Below are positions 36,890 to 44,654 of a DNA stretch of 64,000 bases, one piece after another. This stretch comes from Sandarakinorhabdus sp. AAP62. Its GTDB lineage: Bacteria > Pseudomonadota > Alphaproteobacteria > Sphingomonadales > Sphingomonadaceae. The notes under the pieces were generated by a model. That model searched no databases. It was not told the origin of the DNA and saw only the letters and a program-made list of their open reading frames with translations. Both the position numbers and the translations under genes were made by a program. Each line of letters begins with the position of its first letter. Position 1 is the stretch's first letter. Location: NCBI RefSeq assembly GCF_000331225.1, contig NZ_ANFY01000004.1:1-64000 (forward strand), read 5' to 3'.

Positions 36890-37288
36890 GCGGCGCGCTG
36901 GCTGAGGCCAGCGCCTGGGCGCATGTGCAGCCAGACTGAACCGCCCGGGCCGCGCCTGTCGCGGCACGCGCTTGGACAGGTGCGCTCTTCGACAGGTTCA
37001 GGATGAGCGCATTCTTCGATTCACCCAGGACACAAGCGCGCCCGACCTGATCCGCCGCGAAAATTGCACAAATGTGACAGTTGGTTGCGGAATCGGGCCT
37101 GAATGTGGCGTGATGAAAATCTTAACAGGCAGCGACGTTGAAGATATTGGCGACCCAGTGCCAATTTCTCGAAGAATCCCCGCAACACGTCCCGAATTCT
37201 GCAGCACATCTGCTGTCGCCGTTACTGCAAGCTCGACTGCTTGACTCCAACTGGCGAATCACGGACACTTCGGTTGTGGGGAATTTTC
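36890..37288. other. Intergenic leader of the unknown five-gene cluster
   Basis: It begins with a hairpin GCGCTGGC/GCCAGCGC (36895-36914). A stretch near 36978-37010 (TTCGACAGGTTCAGGATGAG) resembles a sequence often dispersed in related genomes. From about 37050 to 37288 the DNA is less GC-rich than its flanks and probably holds the promoter of the 37.3-40.1 kb cluster. No gene is supported here. Confidence 0.55.
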
Positions 37289-37579
37289 ATGCCGCAACTG
37301 CACAATCAGTTTGCTGACCATTTTGGTGCCGATGTCTCGGCCGCCGCAGAAGGTCGTGCGATGTGCCTCGTCATTGGCCACCGTTCGCCGCTTGCCGCCA
37401 TCAATATGGTGGGCGGCACCGCCGTTGCGGCTCTGCCGAACCATCGCGTGGTCGCCATCGTCGATCTGCGGAACCTGCCGCTGTTGCAGCGGCATGAGGA
37501 TGTGCGGGTGGCCGGCCCGATCTCGATCGATCCGCAGCGTTTTGCAGCTTTTCAGAAACTTGTGGGTGCCCGGCCCTGA
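37289..37579 (+). CDS. Unknown protein, first gene of a five-gene cluster
   Basis: The 96-residue protein from ATG 37289 is not recognised. It alternates hydrophobic strands (AMCLVIGH, VVAIVDLRNLPLL, VRVAGPISI) with polar turns, suggesting a small alpha/beta domain. There is no signal peptide or membrane span. It is followed after 42 bp by the first of three related genes and runs in the same direction, so it is probably part of the same transcript. GTGGGGA lies upstream of the start. Its role could be regulatory or structural; nothing in the sequence decides. Confidence 0.65.
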   Translation: MPQLHNQFADHFGADVSAAAEGRAMCLVIGHRSPLAAINMVGGTAVAALPNHRVVAIVDLRNLPLLQRHEDVRVAGPISIDPQRFAAFQKLVGARP

Positions 37580-37621
37580 TCCCGGCACGCATTCGCGTTT
37601 GACAGTGAAGGAGCAGTGATC

Positions 37622-38149
37622 ATGGCAAGTGTCGGACAAGAACTACTTGATGTGCCCCTGCCGGAAATGGTGCTGAAGCTGGCGCTGGGCATCGCCGAGG
37701 CGCAGCGCGCGCTGGACACCAACAGCATCGAAACCGCCAAGGCGCTGGCGGAAGAGAAGATCGAGATCATTCCGCAGATCACCGAAACCATCGCGGCCAA
37801 TGGCAATGTCAGCTTTGTGACGGCGCCGGCGGTGGAAATGTCGCTGATGCAGGTCGGCCTGTTCCCGACCTTCTACCAATTTGCCGAAGCCACCATCGAA
37901 GTGACGATGGACATCAAGACTTCGCTCAACACCGAGACCAGCATCAAGGTGGGGACCAAGGCCAAGGTGGGCTTTGCGATGTGGAGCGCCAGCGTACGGG
38001 TCGATGTGGCGCACAACCGCAAATTTTCCAAGGAAGTGCGTGGCACCAGCCGGCTGCTCACCCGCATGGTGCCGGTGCCGCCGCCAGCCCGGCTGTTTCC
38101 GCAGATCAAGACGGTGGATAATCGCGTCGCCACGCCGCCGACACCCTGA
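37622..38149 (+). CDS. Unknown cluster protein A (paralogue 1)
   Basis: The 175-residue protein starts at ATG 37622 with AAGGAG 8 nt upstream. It has a helical N-terminus with GIAEAQRALDTNS, an IPQITETIAANGN strand, a PTFYQFAEATIEVTMDI core and a C-terminal SRLLTRMVPVPPPARL. The next gene shares this whole order of motifs (GIADAQLALD, MPTFYQFREATVEVSMDV, SRLTAVLVPVPSPIRI). Protein A carries an extra segment of about 20 residues (NTETSIKVGTKAKVGF) between core and tail. No signal peptide or catalytic motif is seen. I do not know a function for this family; a self-assembling or scaffold role is a guess. Confidence 0.75.
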   Translation: MASVGQELLDVPLPEMVLKLALGIAEAQRALDTNSIETAKALAEEKIEIIPQITETIAANGNVSFVTAPAVEMSLMQVGLFPTFYQFAEATIEVTMDIKTSLNTETSIKVGTKAKVGFAMWSASVRVDVAHNRKFSKEVRGTSRLLTRMVPVPPPARLFPQIKTVDNRVATPPTP

Positions 38150-38160
38150 GGGATCGAACC

Positions 38161-38706
38161 ATGGCGGTCCCACCGATCAAGCGGGGGGTGCCCGGCTTTC
38201 GGGCCCCGTTGGTATCCCCCGCCCAACCCCTGCCGGAAGTGGCCAACGTCAGCTTTGGCGATCTCGTGCGCATGCTCGCCGAAGGCATCGCCGATGCCCA
38301 GCTGGCATTGGATCGATCCAGTGCGGAAATGGCGCTGGAACTGGCCCAATCCCAGGTCGAAATCGTTCCCGCGATCATCGAGACGGTGGATGCCGACGGC
38401 AACATCAAGTTCAGCAGGGCCGAAACCCAGACAGTCTCGCTGCTGGAAATCGGCATCATGCCGACCTTCTATCAGTTCCGCGAAGCCACGGTCGAAGTAT
38501 CGATGGATGTGCACATCGTCGAGAGCGAGAATGAGCAGACCAAGCAGAAGCGGCTGGGCCTGTTCGCCTCCACGCGCGAAGTGCAACTCGATCGGCGCTT
38601 CAACCGCGAAACCAGGGTGGCATCGCGCCTGACCGCCGTTCTGGTGCCAGTGCCATCGCCGATCCGCATCGAACCGGAGCGGCGCACCACGCGGGAGGAT
38701 GGCTGA
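38161..38706 (+). CDS. Unknown cluster protein B (paralogue 2)
   Basis: The 181-residue protein lies 11 bp after protein A. After a Pro-rich N-terminus it repeats A's architecture: GIADAQLALDRSSAEMALEL, VEIVPAIIETVDADGN, PTFYQFREATVEVSMDV and SRLTAVLVPVPSPIRI. By eye roughly 45% of residues match A in the conserved core. A charged segment ESENEQTKQKRLG replaces A's insert. Its stop overlaps the next start by one base (TGATG). The duplication suggests a hetero-oligomer of A and B (inference). Confidence 0.75.
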   Translation: MAVPPIKRGVPGFRAPLVSPAQPLPEVANVSFGDLVRMLAEGIADAQLALDRSSAEMALELAQSQVEIVPAIIETVDADGNIKFSRAETQTVSLLEIGIMPTFYQFREATVEVSMDVHIVESENEQTKQKRLGLFASTREVQLDRRFNRETRVASRLTAVLVPVPSPIRIEPERRTTREDG

Positions 38707-39230
38707 TGCCGACCGTCAATCTCGATGCATTGATGCGGGCCGCCGGCGCATCGCTGGGCGACGCGCAGGTGGGACTGATCGGCAATGCGCCGCAAGCGCC
38801 GACCCGCATGGCGATCGCCGAAGCGACGATGGACATGATGGTGACGGTGGAAGGCACCAGGGGCGAAGCCTTGCAGGTCGCCGCCGTCAACGCTGCCCTG
38901 GCCCGCACCGGCACGGTCAATGCCGAGGCGCTGTCGCGGGTGACCATGCGTTTTGTGGCGATGTCGGATCCACTGGGCGCTGCTGCGCCCGCACCCGGTC
39001 CAACGTCCGCCTCGCCGCCATCGGGCGGCACAGCGCCGCCCCGCCGGCCGCTCACGCGGGCGGAGATGCAGGCGCAGATGCTGAAACTGCCCGACGTGTC
39101 GCCCGTGCTGGCGGCCGGCAAGGAGGTGCGCCTGGATTATACCGCCATCAGTGCCGATCGCACGTTGGTCCGGGCGCTGTCGGACCAGGGTGAAATATTG
39201 GCCGTGCGCCTGCTCGATGGATTGAAGTGA
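38706..39230 (+). CDS. Unknown cluster protein C (diverged paralogue 3 with extra domain)
   Basis: The 174-residue protein keeps shortened versions of the A/B motifs in the same order: GASLGDAQVGL, MAIAEATMDMMVTVEG and ALSRVTMRFVAMSDPL. It has lost the central helix pair. After an Ala/Pro/Ser linker (about 95-118) it has a separate C-terminal piece, LTRAEMQAQMLKLPDV to the end, not found in A or B. It overlaps B and D by one base each, so expression of the three must be linked. The relation to A/B is weak but ordered. Confidence 0.65.
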   Translation: MPTVNLDALMRAAGASLGDAQVGLIGNAPQAPTRMAIAEATMDMMVTVEGTRGEALQVAAVNAALARTGTVNAEALSRVTMRFVAMSDPLGAAAPAPGPTSASPPSGGTAPPRRPLTRAEMQAQMLKLPDVSPVLAAGKEVRLDYTAISADRTLVRALSDQGEILAVRLLDGLK

Positions 39231-40108
39231 TGGCCAGGAAGCCGACCAGACCGCCCACGAAGGCGCCGGCCCAGCCGTTGCCTGCCCGCCCTGCCGCTGC
39301 CGGCAAGGCGCCGCCCGCGGCACCGGCTGCCGCACCCAGGCCTGTGGCTGCCACGCCCGCACCGGCAGCGGCGCCCGCCAAACCGGCCGTGACAGCGGCA
39401 GCGCCCGCTGCCGTACCCGCCAGGGAGCCGGCCAAGCCCGCCGTGAAGCCCGTGGTCCCGCTTTCCGACCGCACTTCGGCACCGGCCAGCGCCGGCTTGA
39501 TGTCGGCGGCGGATGTGATGCTGCTGCGCGACCGGCTGGATGCGGTGATCAAGGGCGTCGCAACGCCCGATACGGGCAAGGCCGCCGATCCGATTGTCGC
39601 GCTGGTGGCCCGCAGCCTGACCGAGGTGCGCGCCGAACATCAATCGCGCCTCGCCGCACTGGAAAAGGATCTGGCGGCGGCGCGGCAGGCCAGTGAAACC
39701 TCGGTCGCCGGCCTGCGCGCCAGCCTGGCGGACGCGCTGGCGGCCATGGATGCCACGGTGAAGGAATTGGCCGCGGCGCGGGCCCGGGAATCCGGGCTGA
39801 ACGAGGAACTGGCGCGCGCGGCCAGGGCGTTGGCCCGGGCCGAGGCCCGCATTGCCGAACTGGCCGAAAAGCCGGCCGCCGATGGCACGCAGCCGGTGGG
39901 TGCCGAGGCCTTTGCCGAGCTGGTGGACAAGTTCGTCGGCAGCCTCAACAGCCGGATGGGCTCCCTCAGCCTTGCCGGCGGAGAAATGGTGCTGAAGGCC
40001 GGCGTGGCAGCCACAGCCACGGGCGCGCGCTTCGTGCTGCCTTCGGCGACGGGGCCTGCCCCTGGCGTGTTGCAGGAACTGCGCTTGCGGCTCGACCCGA
40101 AAAGCTGA
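39230..40108 (+). CDS. Unknown cluster protein D (Ala/Pro-rich linker and coiled coil)
   Basis: The 292-residue protein has a disordered N-terminus of about 75 residues made of Ala, Pro and Lys, then MSAADVMLLRDRLDAVIKG. A long heptad-like helix follows at about 125-220 (runs of LAALEKDLAAARQ, ELAAARARESGLNEELARAA), with a C-terminal region ending VLQELRLRLDPKS. It looks like a coiled-coil tether or scaffold. The ATG at 39230 forms TGATG with the C stop. No enzyme motif or membrane span is seen. It is the last gene of the unknown cluster; the amidase begins 90 bp later. Confidence 0.72.
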   Translation: MARKPTRPPTKAPAQPLPARPAAAGKAPPAAPAAAPRPVAATPAPAAAPAKPAVTAAAPAAVPAREPAKPAVKPVVPLSDRTSAPASAGLMSAADVMLLRDRLDAVIKGVATPDTGKAADPIVALVARSLTEVRAEHQSRLAALEKDLAAARQASETSVAGLRASLADALAAMDATVKELAAARARESGLNEELARAARALARAEARIAELAEKPAADGTQPVGAEAFAELVDKFVGSLNSRMGSLSLAGGEMVLKAGVAATATGARFVLPSATGPAPGVLQELRLRLDPKS

Positions 40109-40198
40109 GGCAAGGGCAGCGCTTGCGCCCACTCCCATAACTGCGCACAGTCTGTGCCGCAGCAGCGGCCCGGTTGGGCCCGTGGCGCGAGGGGCAGC

Positions 40199-41728
40199 AT
40201 GGGGATGTTTGACAGCACGCGCAGGCAATTCATGGCGCAGGCAGGCGCGCTTGCGCTGGCACCGGCGGCGGTCGCCCAGCCGCGCAAGCCGCTCGATCCG
40301 CTGCTGGCCATGCCGGGCCGCCACCTGGCGGCGCTGATCGCGGCGCGCAAGGCCAGTGCCGAAGAAGTGATGCGCGCCGTGCTGGCGCAGATTGGCGCGC
40401 ACAATCCGGCGCACAATGCCATTGTCGCGCTGCAGGATGGTGACCAATTGCTGGCGCAGGCGCGGGCGATGGATGCGCGGCTGGGCGCAGGCGAGACGCC
40501 GGGGCCATTGTTCGGCCTGCCCTGGGCGGTGAAGGACCTTGCGGAGGTGATCGGCATCCGCTCGACCGGCGGCTCGCTGGTCAACAAGGACAGGATCCCC
40601 ACCTGTGAAGGCATCATGGTGCAGCGGCTGCGCCGCGCCGGCGCCATCTTCATCGGCAAGACCAACGCGCCCGAATTCGGCTTTGGCTCCCACACCATCA
40701 ACCGCGTCTATGGCCCGACCCGCAACAGTTTCGATCCCAGCAAATCGGCTGGCGGCAGCAGTGGCGGCGCAGGCGTGGGCCTGGCGCTCAGGATGCTGCC
40801 GCTCGCCGACGGGTCGGATTTCGGCGGCAGCCTGCGCAACCCGGCGGCGTGGAACAATGTGTTCGGCTTTCGCACCGGCACCGGGGTGATCCCGCCCGAA
40901 GGCAATGAGCAATGGATTGGCCGGATGGGCGTGCCGGGCCCGATGGCGCGGCATGTTGCCGATCTGGGCCTGGTGCTGTCGGTGATGGCGGGCAAGCACC
41001 CGCAGTCGCTGCAATCGATCAATGTTGATGCACGGGCCTTTGCCGGGCCGCTCGATGCGGATTTGAAGGGCGTGCGCATCGGCTGGTTGGGTGATTGGGG
41101 CGGGCGCGTGCCGCATGAGCCCGAGGTGCTGCGGATTTGCGAGGCGGCGCTGCCGGCGTTCCGCAGCATCGGTTGCACGGTCGATGTGGCGCAAGTGGAT
41201 CATGAGATCGAGCCCGTGTGGCAGGCGCTGCTGGTGCTGCGCAGCTGGATGTCGGGCACCGGCCTGCAGCGACTGGCCGATGATCCGGCGACGCGCGACC
41301 TGATCGGCAGCCAGGCGCATTGGGAAATCGCCAACAGCCGCACCATCACCGGCGCGCAGGTGTTGAATGCGTCGGCCGTGCGCAGCGCGTGGACCCGGGC
41401 AGTGGACCGCCTGTTCGAGCGCCATGATTTCCTGATCGCGCCGGCGGTGCAGTTGTTGCCCTTCCCGGTGGCGCAGAATTGGCCCACCGAAGTGGCCGGG
41501 AAACGCATGCGCACCTATCACGAATGGATGCTCGGCACCTTCCTGGTGACGATGACCGGGCTGCCCGCACTCGCCGCGCCGGCGGGCTTCTCGGCGGACG
41601 GCCTGCCGGCGGGTATCCAGATCATCGGCCGACGCGGTGCGGAACTGGCCTGCCTGAAACTGGCGCACGCCTATGAACAGGCGGCGAGCGCCGTGGTGCG
41701 GCAGCGGCCGCCCGGATTGGCGGCCTGA
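40199..41728 (+). CDS. Tat-exported amidase (amidase-signature family)
   Basis: The 509-residue protein has a twin-arginine signal (FDSTRRQFMAQAGALALA) and the Ser-cisSer-Lys triad of the amidase-signature family: Lys112 (AVKDL), Ser187/188 in AGGSSGGAG and nucleophile Ser211 in GSDFGGSLRNPA. It should hydrolyse an amide in the periplasm. Its stop overlaps madL by one base, so it is coupled to a malonate transporter. This suggests that it releases malonate from malonamate or a malonamide (inference from context). The ATG at 40199 has GAGGGG upstream. Confidence 0.87.
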   Translation: MGMFDSTRRQFMAQAGALALAPAAVAQPRKPLDPLLAMPGRHLAALIAARKASAEEVMRAVLAQIGAHNPAHNAIVALQDGDQLLAQARAMDARLGAGETPGPLFGLPWAVKDLAEVIGIRSTGGSLVNKDRIPTCEGIMVQRLRRAGAIFIGKTNAPEFGFGSHTINRVYGPTRNSFDPSKSAGGSSGGAGVGLALRMLPLADGSDFGGSLRNPAAWNNVFGFRTGTGVIPPEGNEQWIGRMGVPGPMARHVADLGLVLSVMAGKHPQSLQSINVDARAFAGPLDADLKGVRIGWLGDWGGRVPHEPEVLRICEAALPAFRSIGCTVDVAQVDHEIEPVWQALLVLRSWMSGTGLQRLADDPATRDLIGSQAHWEIANSRTITGAQVLNASAVRSAWTRAVDRLFERHDFLIAPAVQLLPFPVAQNWPTEVAGKRMRTYHEWMLGTFLVTMTGLPALAAPAGFSADGLPAGIQIIGRRGAELACLKLAHAYEQAASAVVRQRPPGLAA

Positions 41729-42087
41729 TGCCCATCTATGGCGTGGCGCTGCTGGCCGCCTGCACGCTGGTTGGCCTGTTCGTTGGCGATCTGATCGGGG
41801 CCACAATGGGCCTGGAGGCCAATGTTGGTGGGGTTGGCATCGCCATGCTGCTGCTGATCACCCTCACCAACCTGCCGGGGCGGCGGCTGGAGCCAGGTTC
41901 GCCCACGGGCAGCGGCGTCCAATATTGGAGCCTGCTCTATATCCCGATCATCGTTGCCATGGCGGCCAGGCAGAATGTGTTTGCGGCGGTTTCAGGCGGG
42001 GTGATGGCGATCACGGCAGGCGCGCTGGCCGTGCTGGCGGCGTTTGCGCTGGTGCCGGTGCTCAGCCGCTGGGCCCAAAGGCCTTGA
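41728..42087 (+). CDS. madL: Malonate transporter subunit MadL
   Basis: The 119-residue membrane protein has four hydrophobic spans and the MadL pattern: MPIYGVALLAACTLVGLFVGDLIG, NVGGVGIAMLLLI and YWSLLYIPIIVAMAA. MadL and MadM together import malonate with sodium ions. It starts in a TGATG overlap with the amidase. The decarboxylase genes (mdc/mad) usually found with it are not in this window. Confidence 0.88.
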   Translation: MPIYGVALLAACTLVGLFVGDLIGATMGLEANVGGVGIAMLLLITLTNLPGRRLEPGSPTGSGVQYWSLLYIPIIVAMAARQNVFAAVSGGVMAITAGALAVLAAFALVPVLSRWAQRP

Positions 42088-42097
42088 TGGTGCGATC

Positions 42098-42859
42098 ATG
42101 ACGGCACGGCTGGCTGATTTTGCTGGCGACAACGGCCTGCTGGTCGCGTTCGTCTTCGTGGGCCTGGTCATGGCAGTGGCCTACGCTCTGTCCCGCCATG
42201 TCGCGCGGGGCACGGTGCATGGTTCGGCCATCGCCATCGCGCTGGGGTTGCTGCTGGCCTTCTGGGCGGGTGCCGATACCGGCGGCACGAATGGCGTGGC
42301 GGATTGGCCGCTGCTGGCTGGTATCGGCGTGCTGGGCGGCAACATGTTTCGCGATTTCGCCATTGTCGCCACGGCATTTGGCGTGCGGCTGGCGGATCTG
42401 CGCGCCGCCGGGCTGGTGGGCGCCCTTTCCATCCTGATCGGCGTCGTGCTGTCGTTCGCGGTGGGGGCCGCAGTCGCCATCGGTTTCGGCATCACCGATC
42501 CGGCCGAGATCGCCACCATCGGCGCTGGCGCGGCCACCTATATCGTCGGCCCCGTCACCGGCGCGTCACTGGGCGTCTCGTCCAGCATCATCTCGCTCAG
42601 CATCGCCGCCGGGCTGGTGAAGGCGGTGCTGGTGATGGTGACAACGCCGCTGGTCGCCCGCCGCATCGGCCTCGACAATCCGGCCAGTGCGATGATCTAT
42701 GGCGGGCTGATGGGCACGACCAGCGGCGTCACCGGCGGGCTGGCGGCGACCGACCCCAGGCTGGTGCCCTATGGCGCGATGACCTCCACCTTCTACACCG
42801 GCCTTGGCTGCCTGATGGCGCCATCGGTGCTGTATCTGGCGGTGAAGGCGCTGGTTTAA
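42098..42859 (+). CDS. madM: Malonate transporter subunit MadM
   Basis: The 253-residue membrane protein has about seven spans and typical MadM stretches: VLGGNMFRDFAIVATAFGV, ATIGAGAATYIVGPVTGASLG and YGGLMGTTSGVTGGLAATDP. It works with MadL. The start ATG at 42098 lies 10 bp after madL. The 3' end overlaps the convergent enoyl-CoA hydratase by 4 nt. Confidence 0.9.
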   Translation: MTARLADFAGDNGLLVAFVFVGLVMAVAYALSRHVARGTVHGSAIAIALGLLLAFWAGADTGGTNGVADWPLLAGIGVLGGNMFRDFAIVATAFGVRLADLRAAGLVGALSILIGVVLSFAVGAAVAIGFGITDPAEIATIGAGAATYIVGPVTGASLGVSSSIISLSIAAGLVKAVLVMVTTPLVARRIGLDNPASAMIYGGLMGTTSGVTGGLAATDPRLVPYGAMTSTFYTGLGCLMAPSVLYLAVKALV

Positions 42860-43683
42860 CTGCCGGTGTAACGCGGAGCGCGCTTTTCGCGGTAGCTGCT
42901 GAAGGCTTCGCGGAAGTCGTTGGTGCCGGTGGCCAGATGCTGTTCCTTGTCGGCAGCGGCAAAGCCAGTCGCATAGTCCTCGTCCAGCGCCGTCCACACT
43001 TGCGCCTTCATCGCTGCGAGGCTGCGCGGGGCGCTGAAGGTGGCGATGCTGCGGGCATAGTCCATCACGTGCGGCAGCAGCGCCTCGTCGTCGAACACGT
43101 CGTTCACCAGCCCCAGCGCCTTGGCCTCCGTGCCGTCGAACCGCCGGGCAGTGTAGAGCAGGTCCATGGCCTTCGCCTGACCGATGTGCCGTGTCAGCAG
43201 CCAGGCCGAACCCTTTTCGCCGGGCACGCCGATGCGGGCGAAGGTGGCGTTGAACAGGGCCGAGGTGCTGGCGAAGCGGATGTCGCAGTGGAGCGACAGG
43301 ATGAAGCCCCAGCCGAACGCCGGGCCATTCACCGCCGCGATGGTGGGCTTGCGGCAGGTGATCAGGGCGGGCCAGCCGCCGCTGTAATAGGGGGCCAGCG
43401 CCGGGCCGATGTCGTCACCCCATTGCGGCGCGGTGTCGGGAAACGGGTTCACATCGCCGCTGCCGCCGCCACCGATGATGGCCAGATCAAGCCCGGCGCA
43501 GAAGCTGCGGCCGGCGCCGGTGACCACGATCACCCTGGCTTCGGGATCAGCGCCGGCCCTTGCCACCGCCGCGAAGAAATCGGTCAGCATGGCGGGCGTG
43601 AGCGCGTTCAACTTGTCTGGCCGGTTCAGCGTGATCGTCGCCACCCCGTCGGCCAGATCATAGCGGATCGGGGTGTCGCTCAT
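42856..43683 (-). CDS. Enoyl-CoA hydratase/isomerase (crotonase family)
   Basis: The 275-residue crotonase-fold protein has the oxyanion-hole segments SFCAGLDLAIIGG and NGPAFGWGFILSLHCDIRFAS, then VPGEKGSAWLLTR. It hydrates or isomerises enoyl-CoA esters. The ATG at 43683 overlaps the nitronate monooxygenase stop by 4 nt, so the two are coupled. Sequence details resemble hydratases of branched or aromatic acyl-CoA catabolism more than FadB, but the substrate is not known. Confidence 0.87.
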   Translation of the reverse strand: MSDTPIRYDLADGVATITLNRPDKLNALTPAMLTDFFAAVARAGADPEARVIVVTGAGRSFCAGLDLAIIGGGGSGDVNPFPDTAPQWGDDIGPALAPYYSGGWPALITCRKPTIAAVNGPAFGWGFILSLHCDIRFASTSALFNATFARIGVPGEKGSAWLLTRHIGQAKAMDLLYTARRFDGTEAKALGLVNDVFDDEALLPHVMDYARSIATFSAPRSLAAMKAQVWTALDEDYATGFAAADKEQHLATGTNDFREAFSSYREKRAPRYTGS

Positions 43684-44654
43684 GCGACCAGCTTCTGCAG
43701 CCGGCCGCGGATGATCTCTTCGGCCTCGCGCACCATGGTTTCGATCAGATGCTTGCAGGTCGGGATATCGTGGATCAGGCCCACCACCTGGCCGCACGAC
43801 CAGCCGCCGGCATCCATGTCGCCGTCCTTCATGATCTTGGGATAGACGCCGGCGACTTCGGCGATGATGTCTTCGAACTTCAGGTCGGCGCCCTTGGTGC
43901 GCTCCTTTTCCAGCAGGCGCTCGACAGCGGCGTTGTTGAGCACGCGCTCGGTGTTCCTGAGCGGGCGCATGATCAGGCGGGTATCAAGTTCGGTGGCGGC
44001 GACCAGCGCGTCCTTCACATTCTGGTGCACAGGGGCTTCCTTGGTGGCGATGAAGCGGGTGCCCATGTTGACGCCATCGGCGCCCATGCACAGGGCGGCG
44101 GCCAGTTGCTTGCCGTTGGCGACACCGCCGCTGGCCACGAAGGGGATCTTCAGCTCCTCGGCGGCGCGCGGCAGCAGCACCCAGTTGCCGACATCATCCT
44201 CGCCGGGGTGGCCGCCGCATTCGAAACCGTCCACCGAAACGGCGTCACAACCGATGGCTTCGGCCTTCAGGCTGTGGCGCACGCTGGTGCATTTGTGGAT
44301 GACCTTGATGCCATGTTCCTTCAGCACCGGCAGCCATTTCGCCGGGTTGTTGCCGGCGGTTTCCACCACCTTCACGCCGCCTTCGATGATCGATTTGATC
44401 AGGCCGGGATAATCGGGCGGCGTCACGCTGGGCAGGAAGGTGAGGTTCACGCCGAACGGCTTGTCGGTCATCTCACGGCAGCGGGCAATTTCGGCGGCCA
44501 GCTTTTCCGACGTGCCCAGGGTGAGGCCGGTAATGACGCCCAGCCCGCCGGCGTTGGAGACGGCGGCGGCCATTTCGGCAAAGCCGACATAATGCATGCC
44601 GCCCTGGATGACCGGATGTTCAATGCCGAACAATTCAGTGATGCGCGTCTTCAT
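43680..44654 (-). CDS. NAD(P)H-dependent flavin oxidoreductase / nitronate monooxygenase
   Basis: The 324-residue FMN TIM-barrel protein has GIEHPVIQGGMHYVG at the start, VNLTFLPS, KCTSVRHSLKAEAIGCDAV, the FECGGHPGEDD loop with the active-site His and ASGGVANGKQL. It belongs to the 2-nitropropane dioxygenase-like family; many members reduce or oxidise other substrates. The ATG at 44654 has GGGGA 9 nt upstream. It forms a two-gene unit with the enoyl-CoA hydratase. Confidence 0.87.
   Translation of the reverse strand: MKTRITELFGIEHPVIQGGMHYVGFAEMAAAVSNAGGLGVITGLTLGTSEKLAAEIARCREMTDKPFGVNLTFLPSVTPPDYPGLIKSIIEGGVKVVETAGNNPAKWLPVLKEHGIKVIHKCTSVRHSLKAEAIGCDAVSVDGFECGGHPGEDDVGNWVLLPRAAEELKIPFVASGGVANGKQLAAALCMGADGVNMGTRFIATKEAPVHQNVKDALVAATELDTRLIMRPLRNTERVLNNAAVERLLEKERTKGADLKFEDIIAEVAGVYPKIMKDGDMDAGGWSCGQVVGLIHDIPTCKHLIETMVREAEEIIRGRLQKLVA

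Follow-up and report, generated by a model that had tools for sequence, protein, structure and literature searches.

A five-gene cassette with DUF2589-related proteins occurs across bacterial phyla and may act at the cell envelope

A run of five small genes, P1-A-B-C-D, was analysed in a 64,000-nucleotide stretch of the genome of Sandarakinorhabdus sp. AAP62 (contig NZ_ANFY01000004.1, positions 1 to 64,000; hereafter the window). The cassette spans positions 37289-40108, with all genes on the + strand in the list of open reading frames (ORFs). It was found across bacterial phyla and was present or absent among sister genomes at one site, and its proteins A and B are tied to the family DUF2589; these three findings are new here, together with a larger relative carrying OmpA at a hairpin tip and a possible tie to the family Trypco2. 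Conserved content, mostly conserved order, purifying selection and patchy presence presumably indicate a useful and portable function. The reading tentatively favoured is that of a hetero-oligomer made in the cytosol, whose A hairpins would contact the cell envelope.

Taking ATG starts, the junctions were 42 bp (P1/A), 11 bp (A/B), -1 bp (B/C) and -1 bp (C/D), so the tight co-directional packing described in the first-pass annotation was confirmed. No signal peptide or membrane span was seen in the five proteins by eye, without use of a predictor. None of them passed the cut-off of a Pfam family (best E-values 0.03 for C and 0.14 for D), an NCBIfam family (0.005 for D, 0.02 for P1) or a PHROGs family. 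The defence library PADLOC responded to D only (E 0.0004, no cut-off reached). All weak library matches of D were confined to residues 96-255, its coiled-coil stretch; membership of the cassette in the defence library was rejected, the PADLOC matches being limited to this coiled coil. Profiles of the A/B family, C and P1 gave nothing below E 0.2 among PDB sequences. As far as the libraries searched go, the proposal of an undescribed multi-gene system thus stands, and no member could be matched with confidence to a described family whose role is known. To our knowledge, no described kind of system has these parts, on a literature check limited to open-licence papers and few words.

Profiles were compared with hhalign against ten column shuffles per comparison, the highest of which reached 1.7%; one alignment consisted of 94 hand-picked rows and the Trypco2 profile was built from 8 sequences. 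A aligned with DUF2589 (PF11655) at 96% over 132 columns (best of ten shuffles 1.05%), and at 97.5% over 168 columns with 7 sequences. DUF2589 gave 79% with B, and 89%, 74% and 21% with AL1, AL2 and AL3, paralogues from a larger gene set described below. In hmmsearch, a DUF2589 profile detected A in Thiomicrorhabdus (E 2e-12 and 3e-10) and in locus L041 (4e-7), values that are generous because the databases held 25-48 frames. The Pfam DUF2589 model itself gave no match up to E = 1 for A, B or 8 aligned A/B-family members, and DUF2589 had no match in the genome of the window, whereas six other genomes matched. On these profile comparisons, homology of A, B and DUF2589 is regarded as established.

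C was linked to proteins of the larger set, namely AL1 (94%), the module of a coiled-coil protein with a PASTA end (coil-PASTA, 94%) and bigX (93%). The D C-terminus aligned with the coil-PASTA module at 93% and with C at 41%, and the same resemblance was seen by eye against 29 D homologues. Through these transitive chains, C and D likely belong to the same superfamily as A/B. The earlier description of A, B and C as three related proteins held directly for A and B, which share 45% identity; for C it depends on AL1, direct comparison with A being weak. DUF2589 and C aligned at 6-16%. Trypco2 (PF19631) gave 64-68% with C over 83-85 columns, 65% with coil-PASTA, 71% with bigX and 8.5-10% with the D C-terminus, and about 2% with DUF2589, A and B. 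Its Pfam model had no match up to E = 1 among the five proteins and none in the genome of the window. The tie of Trypco2 to the superfamily is suggestive. P1 showed no profile link to A, B, C and the D C-terminus (under 1%); P1 and the TPR and L12-like proteins remained below 1% against DUF2589 and Trypco2. Two further assignments were rejected or weakened, the C-terminal domain of C as PASTA (under 1%) and P1 as an L7/L12-like repeat (about 1% against the larger-set L7/L12-like protein). If the cassette is tied to DUF2589 and, with less certainty, to Trypco2, these orphan families would gain a common structural origin, and a single small operon would suffice to test what they do.

The spread of the cassette was determined by searching 84,980 species genomes with an alignment of 8 sequences. 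This search returned 168 relatives, of which the best 80 were kept, and all locus counts rest on these. The kept relatives split into a compact kind (38 loci including the window), with A and B side by side, and a large kind. BLAST clusters placed A/B in all 38 compact loci, C in 34, P1 in 33 and D in 29, so the expected co-occurrence of A/B with C and D in other genomes was observed. Four near-identical Nitrospira metagenome-assembled genomes (MAGs; L034-L037) were all counted in these clusters, L035-L037 being omitted from alignments; L001-L006, short duplicates, were omitted from ORF clustering. The D proteins of the window and of L009 lay outside the 29-member cluster and were assigned by position and C-terminal sequence. 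With profiles, P1 was additionally recovered in L042, C and the D module in L041, and P1 and the D module in L043. Some compact loci were incomplete: L015 and L025 stop before D, L013 and L040 start after P1 and L044 stops within A. L041 was without P1, and L017 without a separate D gene; the long C of L017 appears by eye to bear a PASTA-like stretch. P1 was the first gene in 31 of the 33 loci that have it and stood between A and B in the remaining two (L029, L031). Contig ends aside, A/B homologues standing alone were not seen in the examined loci.

The 33 A proteins of the tree came from 11 bacterial phyla according to the genome records: Pseudomonadota, Chloroflexota, Bacillota, Actinomycetota, Chlorobiota, Nitrospirota, Cyanobacteriota, Gemmatimonadota, Kiritimatiellota, Thermodesulfobacteriota and Thermomicrobiota. 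Many of these hosts are MAGs, and individual phylum labels could be binning errors. Isolates carrying the cassette include Rhodoferax sp. OV413, Parerythrobacter, Sphaerotilus and Pelovirga; on a Sphaerotilus sulfidivorans plasmid, all five genes are annotated as hypothetical proteins. Phylum labels on the A tree required 13 changes, with a minimum of 10 and 19.7 in shuffles, and some transfer of the cassette is likely, short of proof. Within the order, a single-sequence search found B relatives in 3 of 296 genomes, that of the window included. The complete chromosome of the haloarchaeon Halobaculum litoreum held the gene order D-P1-A-B (L045:7586-10676), with profile matches for P1 (1e-13), A (2e-36, apparently frame-broken), B (4e-44) and a D-like coil-PASTA frame (2e-4). 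By eye, its D-like gene has a PASTA-like stretch and a helix-hairpin-helix-like tail.

Among 24 genomes of the genus, compact-kind A/B relatives occurred in two and large-kind relatives in four; one further genome, G888, had a single borderline A/B match (E 4e-4). The window locus was compared in four of the other 23 genomes, and the cassette was missing from the site in all four. In two sisters, window positions 36890 and 42863 lie only 9 bp apart, in a third 36893 and 42863 are joined with 135 bp between, and in the fourth (L151) 36902 and 40182 are joined with 27 bp between. The amidase block that follows the cassette (window 40154-42859) was missing in L148, L149, L150 and L009 and present without the cassette in L151. 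L009, a Sandarakinorhabdus MAG contig, has the cassette at the same place, not followed by the amidase block. Cassette and amidase block are thus separate indels, the cassette forming a discrete one next to the gene of a luciferase-like monooxygenase (LLM). The earlier statement that the neighbours do not explain the cassette was upheld, three sisters lacking both cassette and amidase block and one having the amidase block only. GC content was 0.668 in the cassette and 0.656 in the window, so composition gives no sign of foreign origin. The stretch preceding P1 (36972-37244) has a translation that reads RQVQDERILRFTQD-like and may be akin to sphingomonad interspersed repeats.

The ratio of nonsynonymous to synonymous substitution rates (Ka/Ks) against L009 was 0.21 for P1, 0.11 for A, 0.18 for B and 0.30 for C, and the differences were mostly at third codon positions. 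These four thus appear to be genuine genes, kept by purifying selection. The calculation leaves out D because it is split over two reading frames past its Ala/Pro-rich part in L009 (L009:2596-3533), a real frameshift or an assembly error; in 29 other compact loci, a D-type gene nevertheless occupies the corresponding position.

The large kind comprised 45 loci, including Halobaculum L045, which is by profile nearer the compact kind. Hosts were Myxococcus, Fluviicola, Amphritea, Neptuniibacter and others. Several A/B paralogues were accompanied by a Big_1-like protein in 42 loci, by a TPR protein and by an L7/L12-like repeat protein in 38 loci each, by the coiled-coil protein with PASTA end in 32 and by a long A-like protein in 25. 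When one example of each was scanned with Pfam, PASTA, OmpA and TPR were over the cut-off, and L7/L12 (24.2 bits, cut-off 25.9) and Big_1 (20.7, cut-off 34.9) fell short. Ten larger-set proteins of Fluviicola had no NCBIfam match over the cut-off. Like the cassette of the window, the larger set combines several A/B paralogues and a coiled-coil protein with a D-type module in one gene run; unlike it, it holds the extra TPR, L7/L12-like, Big_1-like, OmpA and PASTA parts. In all 24 long A-like proteins compared, an insert of 361-554 residues splits the A profile. The break lies within A-profile positions 94-142, which contain the tip, in all 24 and is sharp in 12, at about 103-120. Pfam OmpA was found in 21 of the 23 long proteins scanned and aligned (L059, at a contig edge, was omitted), and an OmpA-type motif lay inside the insert in 11 of 24.

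The AlphaFold2 (AF2) model of A had a mean predicted local distance difference test (pLDDT) of 78 and a predicted template-modelling score (pTM) of 0.57. In 177-residue numbering it contains a 32-residue helix (15-46) and a long beta hairpin with strands 86-111 (26 residues) and 130-154 (25 residues) and the modelled tip at 112-129; the tip motif is VGFAMWSASV. C was modelled as helix-beta-beta-beta plus a small second domain (mean pLDDT 78, pTM 0.44). Tips were compared after dropping duplicates and hairpins missed by the pattern, which left 31 of 33 sequences for A, 28 of 32 for B, 9 of 24 for DUF2589 and, from 39 each of the large paralogues, 22 for AL1, 35 for AL2 and 30 for AL3. In A, the longest uncharged run lay in the central third of the hairpin and included glycine and an aromatic residue in 31 of 31; its mean of 11.2 was above all 200 composition shuffles. 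The means of AL1 and AL3 also beat all 200 shuffles, with a central run in 19/22 and 30/30 and glycine plus aromatic in 20/22 and 16/30, respectively. A Gly/aromatic uncharged run was present in seven of the nine DUF2589 hairpins.

Thirteen DUF2589 loci (L101-L106, L113-L117, L152, L153) were inspected, and in five a gene from a family of wall or chitin hydrolases lay on the same strand: GH19 (L102, L105), Amidase_3 (L103), Muramidase about 2 kb off (L114) and Phage_lysozyme (L115). By eye, these hydrolases begin without a signal peptide. The count of 5/13 may be low, as only promising-looking neighbours were tested with Pfam. L106 (M15-like, E 0.31) and L152 failed the hydrolase cut-off, and L104 has a DUF922 gene. 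The DUF2589 passage in PMC3949148 does not mention nearby hydrolases.

Three features together point to the envelope: A has an uncharged tip, long proteins of the larger set bear an OmpA-containing insert there, and hydrolase genes lie near DUF2589. An OmpA-type domain elsewhere grips peptidoglycan. In the favoured reading, P1-A-B-C-D would be a self-contained hetero-oligomer assembled in the cytosol, with A, B, C and the D C-terminus carrying versions of one small module, a helix with long antiparallel beta strands. Subunits would pair through the shared modules to form a ring, barrel or sheet, which the D coiled coil would space or tether, and P1 would have an accessory role. The long A hairpins would project from the body, and their uncharged Gly/aromatic tips would meet the envelope. 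The assembly would dock on or insert into the membrane from inside, reaching towards the wall, and once triggered it would perhaps permeabilise or bridge it. Co-assembly of the cassette proteins is thought probable. Placing the A tip at membrane or wall is more tentative than the hetero-oligomer as a whole, and a pore or lysis-like action appears unlikely. Less likely still is an envelope-spanning nanomachine, in which proteins without signal peptides would assemble in the cytosol through one common helix-hairpin module and drive a ring of beta hairpins across the membrane with the tips towards the wall. If it existed, the window would hold its minimal five-gene form, the larger form would bear OmpA on the hairpin tips, the DUF2589 form would be paired with exchangeable wall hydrolases, and DUF2589 and Trypco2 would be offshoots of the superfamily.

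Several results weigh against the envelope-contacting hetero-oligomer. The AF2 models of A and C are monomers, and pLDDT over A residues 101-140, the outer hairpin and tip, was about 40-55, which leaves the hairpin length uncertain. Among PDB folds, Foldseek with these models returned none at E <= 0.001 and hence no ring or barrel template; aerolysin and the PA pore appeared only at E 2.5 and above (best aerolysin 2.5), so no structural match to aerolysin-like beta-barrel pore formers was obtained. An uncharged tip is also not general. In B, the run was central in 15/28 and as long in 200/200 shuffles, so B has none; AL2 (31/35 central) was equalled or exceeded in 175/200 shuffles and DUF2589 (8/9 central) in 13/200, barely beating chance. 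The PASTA domains of the larger set are C-terminal, on the base side. Direct profile links were weak for A-C (6%) and B-C (13%) and absent between A or B and the D C-terminus (under 2%), so the one-module claim for D rests on the chain D - coil-PASTA - C - AL1 - A. The hydrolase count near DUF2589 has no background rate, and no hydrolase family was found among the 25 listed of the 158 neighbour families of compact cassettes. Halobaculum, an archaeon, has no murein; its P1, A, B and D-like genes mean that wall binding cannot be general.

The main alternative, thought rather unlikely, is that the cassette provides the adaptor hub in a system of conflict (defence or cell death). Its modules would work like Trypco2 or effector-associated domains and, by like-with-like contacts, gather effectors encoded elsewhere, without membrane insertion. 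C, the coil-PASTA module and bigX match Trypco2 at 64-71%, and the accessory, patchy occurrence of the cassette is common among defence genes. According to the passages of PMC7159879 on conflict systems, wall enzymes occur as effectors, and an effector-associated domain is associated with lysozyme-like and papain-like wall enzymes. However, no effector enzyme was recognised among the five proteins, in the 25 listed of the 158 neighbour families or in BLAST clusters outside the four Nitrospira loci. The PADLOC response to the coiled coil of D only and the A-Trypco2 and DUF2589-Trypco2 values of about 2% also speak against such a hub.

A cytosolic structural polymer such as a filament, tube or shell scaffold, with no envelope role, is judged unlikely. 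It would account for several strand-rich paralogues with a coiled-coil partner and no recognised enzyme, and long strands would suit edge-to-edge polymerisation. It leaves unexplained the uncharged aromatic tip in 31/31 A hairpins and the OmpA-bearing tip insert of the larger set, and no fold match was found for it.

Descent from a phage tail or contractile device, as a remnant or domesticated part, is highly improbable. D weakly matched the tape-measure family phrog_1535 (E 0.0014), Foldseek listed phage collar and tail proteins at E 3-6 and one viral predicted structure matched A (E 6.5e-5, TM 0.44). Yet the D match sits in the coiled coil, A had no match in 50,697 phage records, its 12 pattern matches in IMG/VR included no relative, and no tail tube, sheath, baseplate or ATPase gene was found among the five proteins (Pfam, NCBIfam, PHROGs), nor a recognised tail gene in the recurring clusters. 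That the five proteins serve the adjacent LLM monooxygenase or amidase/malonate genes as accessory subunits is hardly credible: they share the strand and D ends 45 bp before the amidase ORF, but the sisters contradict the idea, one having the LLM gene and amidase block without the cassette and three the LLM gene alone, and in L009 the cassette is present without the amidase block.

Coordinates and features of the individual genes are given in Table 1. The P1 consensus core is 'FGA.V....GLFLV......P...V...GG.VV.........LA.L.......L.....I..VGPV..D..RF'; by pattern, P1 may resemble the peptidase-inhibitor I9 fold.

Table 1. Genes of the cassette and extent of the block missing from sister genomes (window positions)
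Feature	Position	Strand	Description
P1	37289..37579	+	96 aa; no recognised domain; alternative ORF start 37241
A	37622..38149	+	175-177 aa; alternative GTG start 37616; remote DUF2589 relative
B	38161..38706	+	181 aa; A paralogue, hairpin shorter than that of A; tip inconsistently uncharged
C	38706..39230	+	174 aa; N-terminal helix and three strands (Trypco2-like order), linker, small C-terminal alpha-beta-beta-beta domain
D	39230..40108	+	292-293 aa; alternative GTG start 39227; Ala/Pro-rich N-terminus, coiled-coil stretch, C-terminal module
Cassette block missing from sister genomes	36891..40181		P1-D plus about 400 bp upstream; site comparison

Neighbours of compact cassettes were aligned for 117 of 130 ORFs; the 13 dropped were all three of L009 and others that were short, lay at contig edges or belonged to the cassette. 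If antisense and shadow frames are set aside, the next same-strand cluster was a TPR-like gene in six loci, four of them the Nitrospira loci L034-L037; in L034 and L035 this gene and the end of D share 4 bp. A GntR-like regulator, recognised by eye, was near the cassette in five loci, once on the same strand. An ilvD-like (dihydroxy-acid dehydratase) gene was near it in L012, L014, L019 and L024, in three of these on the strand of the cassette; on the Sphaerotilus sulfidivorans plasmid, too, the cassette is followed by an annotated ilvD. In Pseudanabaena (L038:1-7129), a TPR-like gene precedes the cassette and two vWA-like genes follow it, of which the second has a membrane span and, at its C-terminus, a stretch resembling OmpA (all by eye). 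In the window, a 313-aa ORF on the - strand (42859-43797) is enoyl-CoA hydratase-like by eye; this family had 13-24 matches per genome across the 24 genus genomes and 23 in that of the window.

Two described families resemble parts of the cassette. Trypco2, an adaptor of VMAP-type conflict systems, was named as a trypsin-co-occurring domain in such systems (PMC7159879), and trypco domains are also mentioned in PMC10907252. It shares with the AF2 model of C a helix followed by three strands, and C differs from it by an extra C-terminal domain. In the BLAST clusters and the 25 listed of the 158 neighbour families, no trypsin-like peptidase or VMAP/MoxR gene was recognised; the vWA-like pair in Pseudanabaena was noted in this comparison. 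DUF2589 shares with A a helix with an 'AQ' motif followed by a strand pair, and in the profile alignment its '(V)PLL..(P)' stands against 'SLL..G..PTFY' in A. The DUF2589 loci tested (L106, L152) differ from the cassette in having no match to the P1 or D profile. As A and B are adjacent in the cassette, DUF2589 paralogues are often close together, which is common and no rule. Two DUF2589 genes were found in four of six genomes of one set (in G539 both matches lay in one ORF, and G313 had one) and in four of four genomes of a second set, two genomes being common to both. One DUF2589 operon, L152, also contains a C-like gene (E 4e-4), as the cassette does.

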